Positions 5,993 to 63,160 of a stretch of 64,000 nucleotides of DNA are shown here, one piece after another (position 1 is the stretch's first letter; the number at the start of each line of letters is the position of its first letter). The notes beneath the pieces were generated by a model. It worked only from the letters and a program-made list of their open reading frames with translations. It did no database searches and was not told the DNA's origin. This DNA comes from Tessaracoccus palaemonis (GTDB lineage: Bacteria > Actinomycetota > Actinomycetes > Propionibacteriales > Propionibacteriaceae). The stretch is from positions 1,984,001-2,048,000 of the forward strand of contig NZ_CP079216.1 of the NCBI RefSeq assembly GCF_019316905.1, written 5' to 3'. The translations under genes were made by a program, and so were the position numbers.

Positions 5993-7944
5993 CGCTCCCT
6001 GGCTCTGCCGCCCGACGCGACGCCGCGGACCACCAGCGCCGCTGCGAGGTCGTTCGACGTGCGGATCGCGCCGACGAACAGCGGGATCAGGACGCTGAGC
6101 AGCGACCTGGTCCGCTGCACCGGGCCGCCGTCCAGGCGGGCGCCGCGCGACCGCTGGGCCTGGCGGATCTGATCGAGGCGTGCGGTCAGCGTCGGGATGA
6201 ACCGCACGGCGATCGTGACGACGAGGACCAGCTGCGTCGGCAACCGGGACGCGCGGGCCAGCGCGATCGCCCGCTCCGCGTCGAACCGCGCCAGCGCCCA
6301 CAGCGTCCACGTGAGCATGGCCAGCAGCCTCAGCACCAGCGACGCGGCGTAGGCGAGCGGGTTGGTCGCGAAGGTCGGGGGCAACAGGTAGCCGAAGACG
6401 CCGATCAGGGCGACGAGCGGGAGGATCGGCAGCAGCGCCGACCGGAGGCGCGACGCCCCGCCGGCGGTCAGCGCGAGCGCGACCAACCCCGCCACGAGCA
6501 TGGCGCCAAGAACCTGCCACGAGCTCAGCAGCGCCAGCGCGACGACGACCACGAGCAGGGTCGCGGCGACCAGCCGCGGGTCCCAGGGGCGCCGGGTGGG
6601 TGCGACCTCGGCCCTCGCGGTCCCGGCCTCCGGGGCCGACTGCGCGGGGGCGGTCAGGGTGACGACGCGGGTGGCCAGCGAGGCGAGCTCCTCGTCGTGC
6701 GTGACGAGCAGCACCGCCGCTCCCCCGGCGGCCGCGGCGGCGATCGCGCGAGCGACGGCGTCGAAGGAGGCGGCGTCCAGGCCGGCGGTCGGCTCGTCGA
6801 GGATCAGCAGGTCCGGGCCGGCAGCGAGCGCCGAGGCGACGGCCACCAGCTGTCGCGCCGAGCGGGACAGCCGCATGGGATGCAGCTCCGCCTCGCCGGC
6901 CAACCCGAGCGCGGCCAGCGCCCGGTCCACGCGCGCCCTGACCTCGTCGGGCGTGGCACCCTGACAGCGGGCGGCGTAGCCCGCCTCCTCCCGCACCGTC
7001 GAGGCGAACAGCTGCGCGTCCGGGTCCTGGAAGACCATCGCGACGAGACCATCGACGCGCACGGCGTCGCCGCCGTCGAGCAGGCCGGCGAGGCAGCGCG
7101 CGAGCGTGGACTTGCCCGACCCGTTGTCTCCCCGCAGCGCGACGACCTCGCCGCGCGCCACGGTCAGGTCGGCGCCGGACAGCGCCCGGACCCCGTTCGG
7201 GTAGGTGAAGTCGAGTCCCGACACGCGCGCGACCGGGGCACCCGGGTCTGCTGCGGAGGGCAGGGCGAGCCGCTCCCGCAGGCCGCCGGCCGCGGGGACC
7301 CGCAGGCCGAGGCCCCGGCACCGGTCCGCGTCGACGTACAGCCGCCCGGGCGTCCCGTCGTAGGCGACGCGGCCACTGCTGAGGACGATCACGCGGTCGG
7401 CCGCCGCCGCGACCACCGGATCCTGCGTCGTGACGAGCGACGAGACGCCGGCCAGCGCGTCGAGGACCGAGCGACGCCCCTCGGCGTCCAGCTCGGAGGT
7501 GGGGTCGTCGAGCACGACCAGGTCGGCGTCCCGGGCGAGCGCCCCCGCGATCGCGACGCGCTGCACCTGGCCTCCGCTGAGCTGCCCGGTGAGACGATCC
7601 TCAAACCCGGCCATGCCGACGCGTGCCAGCGCCGCGGCGACGGCCGTCTCCGCCACGTCGGCCGGTAGCCCATACCCCACGTCGTCGCCGACGCGCGGCT
7701 CGATGAGCGCGGCGGCCGCGTCCTGCGGGACGAAGCCCACGACGTCGGGCCGGTCCACGCGACCGGCGACGGCGGCGGGCGTCAGGTCGGGAATCAGCCC
7801 CACGACGGTCCGCGCGAGGGTACTCTTCCCGGCACCGGCGGCACCCAGGACGACCACCGACCCGCCAGCGGCCAGCTCGACGGTCACGTCATCCAGCGCG
7901 CGGGCGTCGTCGAAGTCGACCGTGAGGCCCTCGACCAGGGTCAC
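5989..7944 (-). CDS. ECF transporter energy module as one chain: ATPase-ATPase-EcfT fusion
   Basis: About 651 residues containing all three common parts of an ECF (energy-coupling factor) importer. ATPase 1: Walker A GAAGAGKSTLA, Q-loop VGFVPQD, signature LSGGQVQRVAIAG, Walker B LVVLDDPTSELD. ATPase 2: Walker A GDNGSGKSTLA, Q-loop MVFQDPDAQLFASTV, Walker B LLILDEPTAGLD, but the signature is degenerate (LSRSARQLVAVASAL). From about residue 465 the C-terminus is a multi-span membrane domain with EcfT-type cytosolic motifs (QAQRSRGARLDG and AALVVRGVAS). The GTG at 7944 overlaps the TGA of the S component upstream, so translation is coupled. Normally A, A' and T are separate proteins; the single chain fixes 1:1:1 stoichiometry. 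An upstream extension to 8136 is rejected because it reads through the S gene in another frame. Confidence 0.88.
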   Translation of the reverse strand: MTLVEGLTVDFDDARALDDVTVELAAGGSVVVLGAAGAGKSTLARTVVGLIPDLTPAAVAGRVDRPDVVGFVPQDAAAALIEPRVGDDVGYGLPADVAETAVAAALARVGMAGFEDRLTGQLSGGQVQRVAIAGALARDADLVVLDDPTSELDAEGRRSVLDALAGVSSLVTTQDPVVAAAADRVIVLSSGRVAYDGTPGRLYVDADRCRGLGLRVPAAGGLRERLALPSAADPGAPVARVSGLDFTYPNGVRALSGADLTVARGEVVALRGDNGSGKSTLARCLAGLLDGGDAVRVDGLVAMVFQDPDAQLFASTVREEAGYAARCQGATPDEVRARVDRALAALGLAGEAELHPMRLSRSARQLVAVASALAAGPDLLILDEPTAGLDAASFDAVARAIAAAAAGGAAVLLVTHDEELASLATRVVTLTAPAQSAPEAGTARAEVAPTRRPWDPRLVAATLLVVVVALALLSSWQVLGAMLVAGLVALALTAGGASRLRSALLPILPLVALIGVFGYLLPPTFATNPLAYAASLVLRLLAMLTWTLWALARFDAERAIALARASRLPTQLVLVVTIAVRFIPTLTARLDQIRQAQRSRGARLDGGPVQRTRSLLSVLIPLFVGAIRTSNDLAAALVVRGVASGGRARER

Positions 7945-56941: not shown

Positions 56942-56958
56942 ATAACGGCCCGTGGCGC

Positions 56959-57010
56959 AAATCGGACCGTTCCGTACGGTTGGGTGTTCAGCCCAGGTAG
57001 CGCAGCGGCG
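56959..57010 (-). repeat. Decayed copy of the DUF4921 gene 3' end (52 bp, copy 1)
   Basis: 47 of 52 positions match 61851-61902, including 25 identical bases that encode the last codons PLRYLG and the stop of the DUF4921 gene. It begins right after the Type ISP stop codon, in the same orientation. It marks one border of the restriction-modification gene. Confidence 0.9.
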
Positions 57011-60000
57011 TCAGAGGCTGAGTGCTGGGAGTGCGTTGACGATCTTCATCGTCTCGACCGACACGGTGACGACCCTCTTGACCAGGTCCACGATGTAACG
57101 GGGATCGCCCTGTTCACGCGAGTAGGCGTTGGGGTCGTTGACGATCCCGGAGGCTTTGTCCGTCTTGATCCAGTAGCGGTCGATGATCCACTCCAGCGCC
57201 GAGCGGGAACCCAGCTGGTACTCGTGGGCTTCCTCCGGGATGCCGCTCAGCCTCACATGCGGGTTGAAGAGCAGCGTGGAGCGATCCGCCTTCGAGACGA
57301 ACCGCATCTTCCTGTCCGTGACGGAGAACAGCTCGAACTCGTCCACACCCGCCGCCGGGGTGACAATCTCATCCAGCGGGTACGGGGCCACCTGCTCGTA
57401 GCCGGTGTGCAGGTCCAGCAGTTGCTTGCCTGCAGCCACGAACGCCAGGAAGTCCGGTGCAGAAGCCGCCAGCGGGATCCGCGGCAACTGCTTCTTCAGA
57501 TCCGCCGCATAACGGGTCCGGTAGTCAGATGAATGCAGCACGCCGTAGACGTAGGAGAAGATGTCGTCCTTGCTGACCCGAGGACCGAACGCCTCGCGGT
57601 ACTGGACCAGGGCCTCGTCGGTGATGTTGTCGACCCGCCGGTAACCATCAACGACCTCACCCTGATCCGGATCGAACAGCATGCCCGAGGGCTCGGCGCG
57701 TTTCGCCGCGAGCACGTAGGTCCAGCGCGGGAAGAACTGGGCCGCATCGACGTAGAGCTTGCTATCAGGCAGCAGCTCCGAAGCCAGCACAGAAAAAGGC
57801 GTCCGCTGGTTCGGCTCGATGACCTGGAAGCCGATGTTGGGCGTGTGGGGGGTGGGGAAGTACTTGCGATTCTTCCCCGGAACGGAGTTCATAACGTCGT
57901 CGAAGTAGACAGCCTGCCGAGTGAAGGGGCGGTACATGGACGTACGCAGGCTGTCGTTGTGGAACTGGGCGGTAAGGCCCTTGATGGCCATGCGCTTGAT
58001 ATCGCGCGACCAACTGATCTGGGTGGGGTCGTTGAGCAGATCACGATCGTCGGTGACATGTCGGGCCGCTTCGGCGTTGTAAGTGTTGATCATGCGACGC
58101 ATGTTGGTTTCGACCGCGGCTGCGGAGAAGTTGTAGCACCAAGCATCACGGGTCGTTTCGACGCCACGTCCATGGATTGTGAAGATGTCGTTGATGGCTG
58201 TGTGACTGGTGAACGTGTCGTCGCGGAGGTTCAGCCAGTCGCCGTGAGCGTTGGGCTGGATCCGGCTCCAGGAGGGGTCACGGAGGGTGGCTTTGGTGAG
58301 GATGCCCAGTTTGGTGTCCCGGTCGAGGTAATCCCCGATGTCGCGGTAGTGGATGGTGGCGGGTCCGGTGTGGCCGGGCGTCTTGACGCCGAGGGTGATG
58401 GCCACGGTGTTCCGGCTACCGGATCCGAAGATCTTCCCGCCCTCCTTGCGGGACAGCTCGCCGGCGGTGCGCTGGTTTCCGCGGAGGTTGAAGACCCAGA
58501 TCTCGCTGAACTCCTGCTGGAGCGACAGGCGCATGCCGTCTGCGGTGTTGCCGTCCAGCCAGCCTCCGTTGGAAACGAAGGCCATGATGCCGCGTTCCCC
58601 GAGGCGGTCGGTTGCCCAGCGGTGCGCGCGGATGTAGGAGTCGTAGAGGCTGTTCTTGTTCGTCGCGGTCGACAGCCCGGCATAGGTGTCGCGGATCCGG
58701 GCGTCGAGGGTGGGGTAGGAGGGGTTGGCGTTGTTGTCGTTGGCGCTGGTCTGCCCCACCGAGTAGGGCGGGTTGCCGATGATGACGGTGATGTCGGTGG
58801 CCAGCTGGATCGCGATGCGTTCGCTGTTTGCGGGGATCAGGGAGGTGTCGGCGCGGTCACCTTCCTCGCTGATCTGGAACGTGTCGGTCAGGGTCGCGCC
58901 CGGGAACGGCAGGTAGTCGGTGCTGCCGGTGACGGCTTCGTAGGTGGCTTCGATGTTGACGGCCGCGATGTAGTAGGCCAGCAGCATGATCTCGTTGCAC
59001 AGCAACTCGGAGGTGTATTTGCGGGCTAGGTCGGCAGGGGTGATGATGCCCGATTCGAGGAGGCGCACGATGAAGGTGCCGGTGCCGGTGAACGGGTCGA
59101 GGATCGTCACGCCCTCATCCGTGAGGCCCTGACCGAAGTGGCGGCGGCTGAGTTCGTCGGCGGCGCGCAGCATGAAGTCGACCACCTCCACGGGGGTGTA
59201 GACGATGCCGAGGGCCTCGGCCTGCTTCGGGAAGGCGTTCTTGAAGAACTTCTCGTACAGGTCGTGGATCACGGTCTGTCGACCGGCGGCGTCGGTGACC
59301 TGGGAGGCACGCACCCGCACGGAGTCGTAAAAGCGCTCCAGTGCGGCGGTCTCGCTGTCGAGTCCCTGGCCCTCAAGGACGTCGAGCATGGTCTGCATGC
59401 TGATGGAAACCGGGTTGGATGAGGCGAACCCGGAGCCGCCGAACAGGGCATCGAAAACGGGTGCGGTGATCAGGTGCTGCGACAGCATCGAGATCGCGTC
59501 ATCGCGGGTGACCCGCTCGTTCAGGTTGGCGCGCAGCCCGCTGAGGAACGCGTCGAAGGTGGCAGTGACCTCGCGACTGGAGCTGGCCAGGATCTGGTTG
59601 ATGCGGGCGATCTGAGCTGCCGACATCGTCGCGACGTCGGCGGCCCATTGGTCCCAGTATTCGCGGGTGCCGACCTTGGCCACGATGCGGGCATAGATCG
59701 AATCTCGCCACGCATCCAACGCCAGCAACGGCAACTGAAGGCCCTTGCCCTCGGTGCCGCTGTCGGTATTGGGGGTGTCGGGCGTATCGATGATGAGTTT
59801 TCCGGAGGGATCAGTGCCGCCGTTGAGGTTGATCGACTGCACAAGCGACTCGAACCGGTCATCGTGGGCACGCAACGCGTTGAGGACGTCCCAGACGACC
59901 TTGAACCGCTTATTGTCCTTCAGCGCATCCTCGGGCTTGACGCCGACGGGGACCGCCACCGGCAAGATGATGTAGCCGTACTCCTTGCCGGGGGCCTTAC

Positions 60001-61755
60001 GCATCACACGGCCTACCGACTGCACCACGTCGACGGGAGAGTTCCTCGGGGACAGGAACATCACCGCATCCAGCGCTGGCACGTCGACCCCCTCGGACAG
60101 GCAGCGGGCGTTGGTCAGGATCCGGCACTGCCCTGCCGGCACGGGAGCTTTGAGCCACTTGAGCTGCTCGCCGCGCTCCAAAGCGTTCATGGTGCCGTCG
60201 ACATGGTGGGCCTCGACCGCGAGATGAGCGGTGGCATCAAAACCGCCAGCAGCTTCGACCACTGTCTCGAATGCCTCTGCCACGCGCTTGGAGCTCCTGA
60301 TGTTCTCCAGGAACCCCACCGCCCGGCGCATCGGCAATGCGCCGGGCGGGAACGACGGGTTGGGATCGCCCTGATGGGAGCGCTTGGCCAGCGAGTTCCA
60401 GCAGCCTAGGATTTTCGCCGCGTCATCAAGTGGGATCTCCAGCTCGTTGGTGGCGACCATGTCTTGCACGGGGCCGGTCATCTGGTCCTCGGAGACCACC
60501 AGCACCAACACCTTGTAGTCGGTCAGCAGATCCAGTTCAACGGCCTCGCCGAACCCGAGGCGGTGGAACACTGGCCCGAAAACCGTCTCGTCATCCATCG
60601 ACGAGAGCACCGCGCCATGCTCGTCTGCCTTCTTCGCGACCTCATCGCCGAACATCCGAGGAGTCGCGGTCATGTAGAGCCGCTTTCCCCCGCGAATGTA
60701 GGTGGAATCGTGGACCTTCACAAACGCCGACTCGTCCGCACCCGACAGCGTCACACCCGTGGTGCGATGCGCCTCGTCGCACAGGATCAGGTCGAAGTCC
60801 GGGGCGCCGGCCTTCTGCGCCCGGGCCACCACGTCCAGGGACTGGTAGGTGGAGAACACCACATTCAGGCCTGCCAGTCGCTTGCCTGCGGTCAGCCGCC
60901 CGGTTAGTACCTCGGCGTCAGTGGTGGCCGGCAGCGGCAGGTCGTGGGGGCTGATGTCCTCGGCCGCGCACGAGGCCTTCGAATCGGAGCACACGACATT
61001 GGCCCGCAGATCCAACGTGGCCTGTGCGGTCCACTCCCTCAGAGTCTGTGCAACGAGCTGGATCGACGGCGCCAGGAACAGCACCCGAAGCCCCCCCCCG
61101 CTTCCTTGGCCATCGACTCGGCGAGCTTCAATGACGTGAATGTCTTGCCCGTGCCGCAGGCCGAGATCCACTGACCCCGGTCAGAGGAAGCGAAGCCCTC
61201 CAGGATCTTCTCGATCGCAGAAACCTGGTGAGGACGGGCGGCAAACCTCGTGCCCCTCGCCAAGTTCAGGTCGAGGGGCCTGGCCGGGTTCGCGACGACC
61301 CAGTCGATGGGGGAAGCAGCGATCTCCGGCAGCCCGATGCGCTGGACCGGAATCGCCTGATCGTCCAGCGCATCCTCAGCATGCGATGTCCACTTGTCGG
61401 TGGTGGAGATGATGATCCGATTCGTGAACCCGACCCCATCCCACGATTTTCCCGATGCGGTGAAGAACGAGTCGATGCTGCTCTTGGCCAGGGGTTGGGT
61501 GGGGGCATAGAACTTGCACTGGATCGCCGTCCACTCGTCGGTGGCCCTGTCCTGGGCCACCAGGTCGATACCCACATCGGCCGTACTGCCGCGATGCGCC
61601 CAGTCGATCCACCGCGACACGTTCTTGTACTGGGAGGAAAGCATCGGGTCGTGCGCGAAGTAGCCGACCATCAACTCCTCGAACTTCGTCCCCTTCTCGG
61701 AGTTCGTCGGCAACTTGTCGAGCGAAGCGATCACGTCATCGATGGTTGTCAGCAC
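57011..61755 (-). pseudogene. Type ISP restriction-modification enzyme, frameshifted at a G9 tract (probably phase-variable, OFF)
   Basis: Single-chain enzyme that translocates on DNA, methylates and cuts. Two frames overlap at nine G in the coding strand (61099-61091); one extra G joins them into about 1,581 residues, the normal size of LlaGI/LlaBIII enzymes. Order: Mrr-like nuclease (GIDL with Asp near 64, QCK near 79-81); helicase with ACGTGKT near 199-205, CDEAHR near 326-331, MTATPR, QSVGRVMRK near 579-587; gamma-type adenine methylase with DPFTGTGTF near 887 and NPPY near 995; C-terminal target-recognition region. As sequenced, translation stops at 238 residues, leaving nuclease plus Walker A, so neither cutting nor methylation is expected. 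The region looks less GC-rich than the neighbours. GTG start at 61755 follows TACATT by 5 nt. A homopolymer sequencing error is the main alternative. Confidence 0.9.
61091..61099 (-). repeat. Nine-G homopolymer tract in the Type ISP gene
   Basis: Coding strand reads GAAGC, nine G, CTTCGG. In-frame fusion needs 2+n divisible by 3, so n of 7 or 10 is ON and n of 9 is OFF. It lies about 20 codons after the helicase Walker A motif, where slipped-strand mispairing would switch the whole enzyme. Confidence 0.85.
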
Positions 61756-61844: not shown

Positions 61845-61850
61845 ACGGCC

Positions 61851-61902
61851 AAGTCGGATCGTTCCGTGCGGTTGGCCGTTCAGCCCAGGTAGCGCAGCGG
61901 CG
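61851..61902 (-). repeat. DUF4921 gene 3' end and flank (52 bp, copy 2, native)
   Basis: Native counterpart of 56959-57010; covers the last seven codons and stop of the DUF4921 gene plus about 29 bp downstream. Five mismatches separate the copies, four of them in the noncoding flank and none inside the 25-bp core. Confidence 0.9.
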
Positions 61903-63160
61903 CGGGCCCCGGATCCCCGCCGATCCGGACGGAGTCCGCGACCGCGCCCGATGCCTGCAGCGCCACGAGCCGTGTCACCACGCGCTCGTGCAGTGCCGCG
62001 GGCGAGACGGTGTTGAGGTAGATCCGGGTGGCCCCCTCGAAGCCCGCCAGCGTGGAGACGCGCCACTTCAGCAGCACGCGCCACGGCATCGCCGTCGCGA
62101 CGCCGGGCGGCTGGTAGTACCACTCCTCGTTGCACGGCACGTCCGCCCCGGTGGCGGCGTGCATGGCGTGCAGCAGGTCGCTGACGGAGTCGAGCTCGGC
62201 GCGCGTGTGCTCCCACGGCCGGGTGTGCGGGCTGCGGGAGGCGATCTCGATCGTCGGATACCGGTGCCCGAACCCGGCCCACGCGACGGCGTGCTCCGTG
62301 GTGGCGATGATCAGCCCGGCGGCCGCGGCGTGGTCCACCCCGGCGGCGTTGAAGAGGTCGGGCTCCGCCTCGAGCCGCGCCAGCGTCGCCTCCTGCGATG
62401 CACCCAGCTCGTCGATGGCGACGAGCTGCTTGTGCAGGTGGTCGAACGACGCGCCCGCGGGGCGCAGCCAGTTCTGGAAGACCGCGACGTAGCGGGCGTA
62501 CGGGTTGACTGCGTACAGCCGCCGCGCGGAGTCGGCGGCGAAGCCGACGAACGCGCGGTGCTCGTCGGGGCTCAGCGTGCCCGACGACGCGAGGCCGGAG
62601 TCGTCCACTGCGCCGTCGGTGAAGTGGCGGCGGGCGATCACGACGTCGTGGCCGCCCCCGAAGAAGCCGTCGGCCCTGGCGAGCCGCTCGTCCTCGGCCA
62701 GCTCACCGGGGTCCTCCCCCGCGGCCCGCAGCTTTGCGTCGATCACGCGCAGGACGTGGGCGCGGCCGGCGGGGTCGGCCAGGTAGTCGGCGCGGCGTCT
62801 CGCAATCCTCGGGGCCACCTCGTAGCCGTGGTTGAGGCGCCAGTAGTCGTAGCTCAGGATCTCGAACAGGTTGGGCACCCGGCGGAAGTCGGCGACGGTG
62901 TCGAACAGTCGGGCGGCCGGCAGCCAGTCGAACGTCGCCCCCGCCACCATGCGGGCCTTCTCCGGCGGCGTGTCGAGGTAGCGGTCCTGGCAGAAGGCGC
63001 ACTCGCGAGTGCGGCGCTCGTCGGTCAGCGGACGGGGATCAGGATGCGGGAGGCCCAGCGGGCGGTTGCCGCGGCCGGGCACCGTCCACACCTGGGTGCC
63101 GGTGAACGGGTTGACCTGCTTGACGGTGCCGTCGGGCAGCGTCTGGAGGAACCGTGGCAC
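61880..63160 (-). CDS. DUF4921-family protein (GalT/HIT-like nucleotidyltransferase fold)
   Basis: 426 residues. Features of the galactose-1-phosphate uridylyltransferase fold: Cys pair in RECAFCQDRYLDTPPEK and the HIT-like FDHLHKQLVAIDE. VNPFTGTQVWTVPGRGNRPL at the N-terminus is distinctive of DUF4921. Activity unknown; a nucleotidyl transfer or hydrolysis is plausible. GTG start at 63160, 8 bp after ctaB on the same strand. Its 3' end is duplicated 4.9 kb away. Confidence 0.88.
   Translation of the reverse strand: MPRFLQTLPDGTVKQVNPFTGTQVWTVPGRGNRPLGLPHPDPRPLTDERRTRECAFCQDRYLDTPPEKARMVAGATFDWLPAARLFDTVADFRRVPNLFEILSYDYWRLNHGYEVAPRIARRRADYLADPAGRAHVLRVIDAKLRAAGEDPGELAEDERLARADGFFGGGHDVVIARRHFTDGAVDDSGLASSGTLSPDEHRAFVGFAADSARRLYAVNPYARYVAVFQNWLRPAGASFDHLHKQLVAIDELGASQEATLARLEAEPDLFNAAGVDHAAAAGLIIATTEHAVAWAGFGHRYPTIEIASRSPHTRPWEHTRAELDSVSDLLHAMHAATGADVPCNEEWYYQPPGVATAMPWRVLLKWRVSTLAGFEGATRIYLNTVSPAALHERVVTRLVALQASGAVADSVRIGGDPGPAPLRYLG

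Follow-up and report, generated by a model that had tools for sequence, protein, structure and literature searches.

A nine-G tract interrupts a putatively phase-variable Type ISP restriction-modification gene in Tessaracoccus palaemonis

Background

Phase-variable restriction has been studied mostly in host-adapted Gram-negative pathogens. A 2016 report by Anjum is said to describe such an enzyme in Campylobacter jejuni, the Type IIG product of gene Cj0031c, together with its repeat mechanism. In the Type ISP enzymes LlaGI (5ffj) and LlaBIII (4xqk), an Mrr nuclease, an SF2 motor, a coupler, a gamma methylase and a recognition domain follow one another on a single chain; one report gives the PD-QXK nuclease motif as typical of the class (PMC3874165). 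Two Type ISP frameshifts of Helicobacter pylori 26695 were not caused by sequence repeats, according to the authors (PMC3936762). In Streptomyces coelicolor, Pgl switches at 10^-2 to 10^-4 through a G tract in pglX, which counts 8 or 7 bases (PMC4365076). No description of a phase-variable Type ISP system was found in the open-access literature searched, in agreement with an earlier note on the present locus, which knew of none in actinobacteria.

The DNA analysed, referred to below as the window, is a stretch of 64,000 nucleotides from the genome of Tessaracoccus palaemonis.

Results

Structure of the interrupted gene

The Type ISP gene lies on the minus strand and, by the sequence and the list of open reading frames, is split into two overlapping open frames which meet, as the earlier note had claimed, at a homopolymer of exactly nine G (61091..61099). 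The 5' frame (61039..61755; 238 aa as read, GTG start) encodes the Mrr-family nuclease domain and the helicase Walker A, passes through the tract into ...AKEAGGGFGCC... and reaches a stop, out of frame, just past it. The overlapping minus-strand frame, 61171-57011, goes on as LRVLFLAPSIQLVAQTLREW... down to 57011; its portion beyond the tract (57011..61090; 1,359 codons and a stop) encodes the rest of the helicase, the coupler, the gamma methyltransferase and the C-terminal recognition domain. The tract is a slippable coding repeat whose length decides whether a full-length product is encoded, and the frame arithmetic behind the claim that ten or seven G would make the frame continuous is correct. 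In the single assembly the domains are distributed over two frames, not carried by one uninterrupted chain.

The Type ISP identity proposed earlier is supported by Pfam matches and by homologues of known structure. At the N-terminus, the Mrr_cat_2 nuclease domain (61282..61653, minus strand like the other domains and motifs of the gene; Pfam, 4e-43) includes DVGIDLVA and IQCK, which agree with the PD-QXK pattern. The SF2 motor, which aligns to LlaGI and LlaBIII, has in the same frame the Walker A GTGKT (61141..61155), 41 nt upstream of the tract, and in the second frame the motif II DEAH (60767..60778; motif scan and LlaGI/LlaBIII alignment), TATP and the motif VI QSVGRVMR, the last near the end of a Pfam Helicase_C domain (59996..60220). 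The 1,359-residue frame also carries the ISP_coupler domain (59285..59659; Pfam), methyltransferase motifs I, DPFTGTG (59078..59098), and IV, NPPY (58763..58774), both located by motif scan and alignment, and the C-terminal specificity domain Type_ISP_C (57083..58189; Pfam); its N6_Mtase match scores 20.8 bits, with a cut-off of 20.4. The two pieces, unjoined, match one PADLOC model, PDLC03597, at positions 3-216 and 219-1639 of 1646, and LlaBIII at residues 14-225 and 229-1574, so that homology extends over nearly the whole LlaBIII length. Alignment to LlaBIII places the tract in the loop after the Walker A helix, before the next strand.

Outside the tract, no second stop or frameshift was seen across the approximately 1,580 codons of the gene, and all eight tested motifs are present in the two pieces; the further inactivating mutations which the earlier note had named as grounds for rejecting its reading are not visible. 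On this sequence evidence, the locus is supported as a single-chain Type ISP restriction-modification gene that is split in the present assembly and shows no other damage. A pseudogene, in which a one-off frameshift killed the enzyme and decay is under way, would explain the broken frame, and a decayed Type ISP remnant is known in another genome (G036); the clean remainder of the gene and a break located exactly at a slippable tract make this explanation improbable.

While the frame is interrupted, translation of the downstream piece might also begin at an internal start and yield a methylase without nuclease. An alternative-frame GTG is found at 61171, ahead of the tract, and H. pylori HP0669, a methylase and specificity fragment of a Type ISP gene, is active alone (PMC3936762). 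Little probability is given to this alternative, as no clear ribosome site was recognized by eye at 61171 and the start falls within the translated upstream frame.

The gene is flanked by a 53-nt direct repeat. The upstream copy (61850..61902) is made up of the 3' end of the neighbour gene (61880-63160) and sequence downstream of it; the other (56958..57010), 91% identical, abuts the ISP stop codon. The pair is a probable footprint of cassette insertion; among 53 loci with usable flanks, this one included, only the T. palaemonis gene shows flanking direct repeats.

The tract among Type ISP relatives

A nine-G run is unsurprising for the composition of the window, where one is observed and 2.02 are expected; when the window is shuffled by dinucleotides, at least one is present in 76 of 100 shuffles. 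In the comparison with homologues suggested in the earlier note, none of 35 other Type ISP loci exceeds six G at the site, the longest run at the junction being 6 in two of them, 4 in two and 2-3 in 31. The junction reads GGC GGC/GGG/GGA TCA/TCG in four of the closest named relatives, and the ISP genes of relatives within the genus are without a long tract there. Inserts found in the junction loop of relatives include NERAQAGQGEH and NRKVMGDDGDEP; since the relatives vary in this way, a change of length at this point should be tolerated.

Both parts of the enzyme are found as one piece each, in a single frame, in 31 of 42 other ISP loci, the others being cut by contig ends, truncated or frame-broken. 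The locus of G036 is a remnant with an internal deletion and several frame changes. In a neighbouring species, T. coleopterorum (L038, with the same coordinates as G005), whose assembly is 60% complete, the ISP match breaks up into 13 pieces that lie in different frames. Repeats occur elsewhere in the class: the ISP gene of genome G018, from another species, holds a C24 that keeps the frame, and in two Akkermansia ISP genes a tract lies close to the start, either a G9, in frame, or a C8, which leaves the start codon out of frame. A G23 in the ISP gene of L022/L266 was not counted, because tract and following sequence lie at the extreme end of a metagenome contig and resemble read junk.

Sister tracts in the same genome

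Long G runs are uncommon in the 3.2-Mb genome, which contains exact runs of seven (48), eight (1), nine (5), ten (2) and eleven (1) G. Four of the nine runs of at least eight G are coding by inspection of open reading frames, and three of these four are located in DNA methyltransferase genes belonging to three unrelated defence systems: the Type ISP gene (G9, off), HmaB (ten G at genome positions 2882401-2882410, on) and a DrmMI-like methylase (eleven at 3166944-3166954, off). The fourth, a G8 in a small prophage ORF, is also seemingly frame-shifted, and may point to errors of assembly where G runs are long.

According to such an explanation, every cell would have an in-frame tract and the gene would be constitutively on. 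Long G runs are a classic source of consensus error, the prophage run fits, and the 13-piece locus of T. coleopterorum indicates that errors of this kind do occur in the genus. The source assembly, however, is one contig, 100% complete, and of the 30 G7 loci read, out of 48, 18 look coding and 17 of these keep the frame, so the assembly is not generally indel-ridden. Moreover, an error explains the one-base offset, but not the location of three of four coding long tracts in defence methyltransferases. This explanation is considered unlikely, though less so than the pseudogene or the internal start.

The sister tracts were followed into related loci. Of 30 HmaB loci read, two, from two genomes, carry a tract near methylase motif I, each at a different spot. 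In the DrmMI-like family of Propionibacteriaceae, a repeat is present at the methylase/recognition junction in all 13 readable copies, while its unit changes between copies (poly-G, poly-C, GA or ACAG). The frame is open at five of these junctions and shifted at seven; the thirteenth lies at a contig end and gives no frame call. Two of the seven shifted copies (L309 and G010 L310/L318) carry a further frame change, and decay or poor assembly may account for some of the 'off' copies. Slippage of transcription or translation, which homopolymers can provoke, might restore the frame in some products of the Type ISP gene, with low constitutive expression and no genetic switch, and the frame overlap is compatible with it; GA and ACAG repeats at the same DrmMI-like site fit slippage of DNA, not a conserved recoding signal, and recoding is given a low probability.

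In six plasmid relatives outside Propionibacteriaceae (one each from Streptomyces and Nocardioides, two each from Rhodococcus and Deinococcus) the junction was not found by motif, and over the match plus 1.2 kb the only repeats were an A7 in one Rhodococcus and, in both Deinococcus, an A9 some 0.9 kb beyond the match. Within the scope of these six relatives, the junction repeat thus looks specific to the lineage.

Long tracts in other genomes of the genus

Coding tracts of at least nine G were found at 11 sites in 94 stretches of other genomes of the genus, a count derived from a crude two-sided coding test, such that some sites may be chance open frames. The test failed to pick up the source genome's own methylase tract (L077), and the poly-G rows of L158, L210, L212, L216 and L238 had been dropped beforehand as artefact-like. 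Only one of the 11 sites, an HsdR, is related to restriction-modification, as is one of the 10 tract-spanning frames given to Pfam. The use of long G tracts as a general marker of defence genes in the genus is thus unsupported.

Discussion

Phase variation is the best reading of the Type ISP gene, on sequence evidence that comes mainly from elsewhere than the tract site; the one genome of the species covered shows a single tract length there. As two unrelated defence methyltransferases of the genome carry like tracts, the ISP tract is best seen as a member of a switching set; that the gene is otherwise intact, has a slippable G tract and belongs to a small group of anti-phage loci, each switching independently, is judged likely. 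The earlier note had called the gene phase-variable and caught OFF. The tract and frames stand as described and so does the broken frame; switching is a deduction, backed by the two sister tracts and by the alternating frames of the 13 DrmMI-like junctions, and the OFF call, resting on a single assembly, is inseparable from a one-base consensus error.

In the proposed mechanism, slipped-strand mispairing at replication would frequently lengthen or shorten the tract by one base. In the ON state, a full-length enzyme would unite nuclease, motor, methylase and recognition; in the OFF state, which the interrupted assembly would represent, a truncated nuclease stub would be made, without motor or methylase. 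Independent switching at several loci would make the cells of a clone differ in phage resistance and in methylation pattern. Slippage within the strain, an OFF state in cells and a benefit against phage are inferred, and T. palaemonis probably gambles by random on/off switching of several anti-phage defences. A broader proposal is slightly favoured: a multi-locus defence phasome, in which Type ISP, Hma and a helicase/DrmMI-like methylase/probable McrBC system would be under independent slippage switches, giving a clone up to eight resistance/methylation states, and mutability of the junction would be selected in Propionibacteriaceae. Selected mutability is suggested by the persistence of a repeat in all readable DrmMI-like copies while its unit is replaced.

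A putative slippage device is now seen in an actinobacterial family, in the Type ISP class as well as in Hma and DrmMI-like systems. With cutting and marking on a single chain, an ISP switch brings on both at once, and a cell that passes from OFF to ON has to survive while its chromosome is unmethylated; how ISP enzymes avoid self-cleavage can be tested directly on this passage. The DrmMI-like repeat, with its exchanged units, is likewise a natural experiment on selection for mutability.

Among known systems, the C. jejuni Type IIG enzyme is reportedly similar in being phase-variable with restriction and methylation on one chain, but is of another type, without translocating motor, and from another phylum. 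The H. pylori loci HP0667-HP0669 and JHP0612-JHP0613 also correspond to a frameshift-broken Type ISP gene; in 26695 the frameshifts are not repeat-borne, according to the authors (PMC3936762), whereas the T. palaemonis break is at a G9. Pgl of S. coelicolor is likewise an actinobacterial defence methyltransferase with a G-tract switch (PMC4365076); it is BREX-type and multi-gene, while the T. palaemonis ISP gene combines restriction and modification on one chain. LlaGI and LlaBIII share that single-chain architecture, from which the T. palaemonis gene is distinguished by the nine-G tract after the Walker A helix and by the split of its frame.

Structure of the split gene

The genome of Tessaracoccus palaemonis (G000) is a single contig of 3,204,344 bases, of which the window covers G000:C1:1984001-2048000; unlabelled positions refer to the window. 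Named relatives put the genome in Propionibacteriaceae close to Tessaracoccus, the best protein match being T. coleopterorum, at 79%. The Type ISP restriction-modification gene lies on the minus strand (57011-61755), where a frame of 238 residues (61755-61039) overlaps a longer one, ending at 57011, at a run of nine Gs (61099-61091) which lies in coding sequence and shifts the frame. The meeting of two frames at this tract, reported in an earlier note, was confirmed by both the sequence and the ORFs. Pfam domains assigned to the upstream frame are Mrr_cat_2 and the beginning of the helicase, while the remaining helicase, ISP_coupler, N6_Mtase and Type_ISP_C are found in the 1,359 codons past the tract. 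Without being joined, the two pieces match adjacent parts of a single PADLOC model (3-216 and 219-1639 of 1646) and align to residues 14-225 and 229-1574 of the Type ISP enzyme LlaBIII (PDB 4xqk). All eight motifs sought (nuclease D, QxK, Walker A, DEAH, TATP, motif VI, methylase motif I and NPPY) were detected; domains, model, structural match and motifs thus bear out the nuclease, helicase, methylase and recognition regions proposed in the note. Further inactivating mutations in the gene were also looked for and none was seen: past the tract, ORF reading reveals no stop before 57011, and alignment to relatives reveals no change of frame.

Aligned to LlaBIII, the tract falls in the loop following the Walker A helix. 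Comparison with homologues, as the note had suggested, covered 35 ISP loci. The longest G run at this junction is 2 or 3 in 31 of them and 4 in two, and it reaches 6 in the other two, those of C. hylobatis (L009) and Nocardioides currus (L008). Among the closest named relatives, four have GGC GGC/GGG/GGA TCA/TCG at this point. Because loop length at the junction differs between relatives, extra glycines should be tolerated. GGG accounts for 20 of the 103 glycine codons of the gene, tract excluded. From base composition, 2.02 nine-G runs are expected in the window, so that nine Gs are not improbable there. Over the whole 3.2-Mb genome, however, such runs are few, exact runs numbering 48 for G7, 1 for G8, 5 for G9, 2 for G10 and 1 for G11: the fall in number with length breaks at G8, runs of at least nine (n=8) outnumbering G8 (n=1).

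The gene lies between two copies of a 53-nt direct repeat (61850-61902 and 56958-57010, 91% identical), which consists of the upstream gene's 3' end together with the sequence downstream of that gene. Flanks could be used at 52 other ISP loci, and none of these has such a repeat within 900 nt. The G+C content of the gene, 0.636, is lower than that of its neighbors (0.70-0.78), and the gene was probably inserted as a single-gene cassette. The repeat resembles a footprint of insertion, and the cassette carries no integrase.

Long tracts in the genome and in the genus

The surroundings of all nine G runs of at least 8 in the genome were inspected, and each was classified as coding or intergenic by ORF inspection. 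Four G9 and one G10 are intergenic. Besides the ISP tract, the coding ones are a 10-base tract, in frame, in a methylase named HmaB by PADLOC (genome 2882401, L080:10402-10411), an 11-base tract, frame shifted, in a methylase whose nearest models are DrmMI and Type IIG (genome 3166944), and a G8, apparently shifted, in a small prophage ORF (genome 327859, about 327860; L075:1699-1706). In the same prophage-like region, an intergenic G10 (L075:1501-1510, genome 327662-327671) is contained within an inverted repeat. Three of the four coding tracts are therefore held by DNA methyltransferase genes of three unrelated defence systems, the chance of which is of the order of 10^-5 if such genes fill about 1% of the genome, a guessed share for a class chosen post hoc. 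As a control, 30 of the 48 G7 loci were examined. The sequence on both sides of the run looks coding in 18, of which 17 are in frame and one, with a low coding score, is shifted.

The genus was sampled outside this genome at 83 of 100 exact-G9 places, 12 of 34 exact-G10 places and five longer runs, for 99 stretches, five of which were excluded as artefact-like before a two-sided coding test. This test, which also missed the methylase tract of T. palaemonis itself, was passed by 11 sites, including a UvrA-like gene (shifted), a biotin carboxylase, a TPP enzyme and a hydrolase. Only one is related to restriction-modification, a Type I HsdR gene by Pfam, with an in-frame C9 (L229:2502-2510) in another species (G038); in this genus a long coding tract therefore does not, in general, indicate a defence gene. 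For comparison, an indel-ridden assembly (G005) exemplified assembly noise and a deleted remnant (G036) true decay.

Tracts in HmaB and ISP genes of other genomes

The HmaB search yielded 37 matches in 32 of 198 genomes; two of the 30 loci read have a tract. In T. palaemonis, where PADLOC places HmaB between HmaA and HmaC, an in-frame C10 encodes prolines immediately ahead of methylase motif I; in genome G050 an in-frame G10 (L280:1857-1866) lies inside the motif I glycines. The ISP scan covered 72 loci, several being the same genome twice, of which 71 matched, and mononucleotide runs of at least 8 occur in six: the G9 described here and those of G018, L022, L266, L028 and L031. The runs of L022 and L266 were dropped as contig-end junk. 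In G018, a different species of the genus, a mid-contig C24 on the coding strand (L085, plus strand, 7895-7918) provides, in frame, eight proline codons separating the methylase from the recognition part of an intact gene. Two Akkermansia MAG genes have start-proximal tracts. The L031 gene has a single in-frame ATG ahead of its conserved part, located before a G9 (354-362), and a GTG at the border of the tract. With the C8 of L028 (5202-5209), the corresponding ATG falls out of frame, which leaves a TTG. Such arrangements make a phase-variable Type ISP enzyme in another phylum possible. The G9 tract of a different Akkermansia gene is described as varying in culture (PMC13055324).

A family of DrmMI-like methylases

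The DrmMI-like methylase (L081:7835-11750, genome 3163834-3167749) is preceded by DruE-like and DpdE-like helicases and followed by putative McrB and McrC genes, a probable naming based on resemblance to annotated operons of Nocardioides pNOCA01 and Deinococcus radiodurans MP1. The operon (L081:47-16288) thus comprises two large helicases, an N-6 methylase and probable McrB/McrC; a like-ordered one is present in pNOCA01 and, broken up by other genes, in MP1. The first recognition-domain-like ORF is immediately followed by a second (L081:11726-12586), which looks similar to it by eye and may be an alternative specificity cassette.

Homologues (L304-L318) were searched in 198 family genomes, 13 of which were positive, with 16 matches at 16 loci. 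L310 and L318 represent one site, while L315 (32-35% identity) and L317 end short of the junction at which the methylase meets the recognition domain. All 13 Propionibacteriaceae copies reaching this junction carry a simple repeat there: C11 (T. palaemonis), G11, G10, G9, G8, G9, C11, G10, (GA)12, (ACAG)7, truncated where its contig ends, (ACAG)23, (AG)11 and G12. Five copies (L305, L306, L312, L313, L316) are open past the repeat for 261-295 residues; L312 and L313, which read MMPL and failed the automatic LPL/IPL motif test, were counted in frame by open length and translation. Seven stop 8-36 residues past the repeat, the recognition domain continuing in another frame, and L311 was assigned to neither group. 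Two of the shifted copies have a second frame change, L309 past the tract and G010 (L310/L318) near residue 750. Genome G054 displays both states, one per contig (G8 shifted, G9 open). This family offers the strongest evidence that defence methylases are switched by slippage in the lineage.

Proposed switching and comparison with known systems

Type ISP enzymes recognize an asymmetric site, translocate with ATP on unmodified DNA and cleave where two enzymes coming from head-to-head sites meet (PMC4666363, PMC3874165). Slippage at the tract would remove motor, methylase and recognition at once; phage and foreign DNA would be let into OFF cells and restricted in ON cells. The tract and the frames on which the note had based its claim of phase variation stand; switching itself is a well-supported reading of the sequence, not demonstrated in cells. 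Of more interest than the single ISP gene is the wider pattern, in which one genome has tracts in three defence methylases and every readable copy of the DrmMI-like family has a repeat at the same junction.

No repeat-driven Type ISP switch is described in the portions available of the mostly open-access literature searched on Type ISP enzymes and phase variation, nor was a report on phase variation and restriction in Propionibacteriaceae found in a likewise mostly open-access search. The Type ISP frameshifts of H. pylori 26695 are stated not to be caused by repeats (PMC3936762). In S. coelicolor, the G tract of pglX is given as 8 or 7, with Pgl switching at 10^-2 to 10^-4 (PMC4365076). This gene is the nearest actinobacterial precedent for the ISP tract. 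In Type IIG enzymes, restriction and methylation are reportedly switched on one chain (work attributed to Anjum, 2016), the same arrangement as proposed here for the ISP gene.
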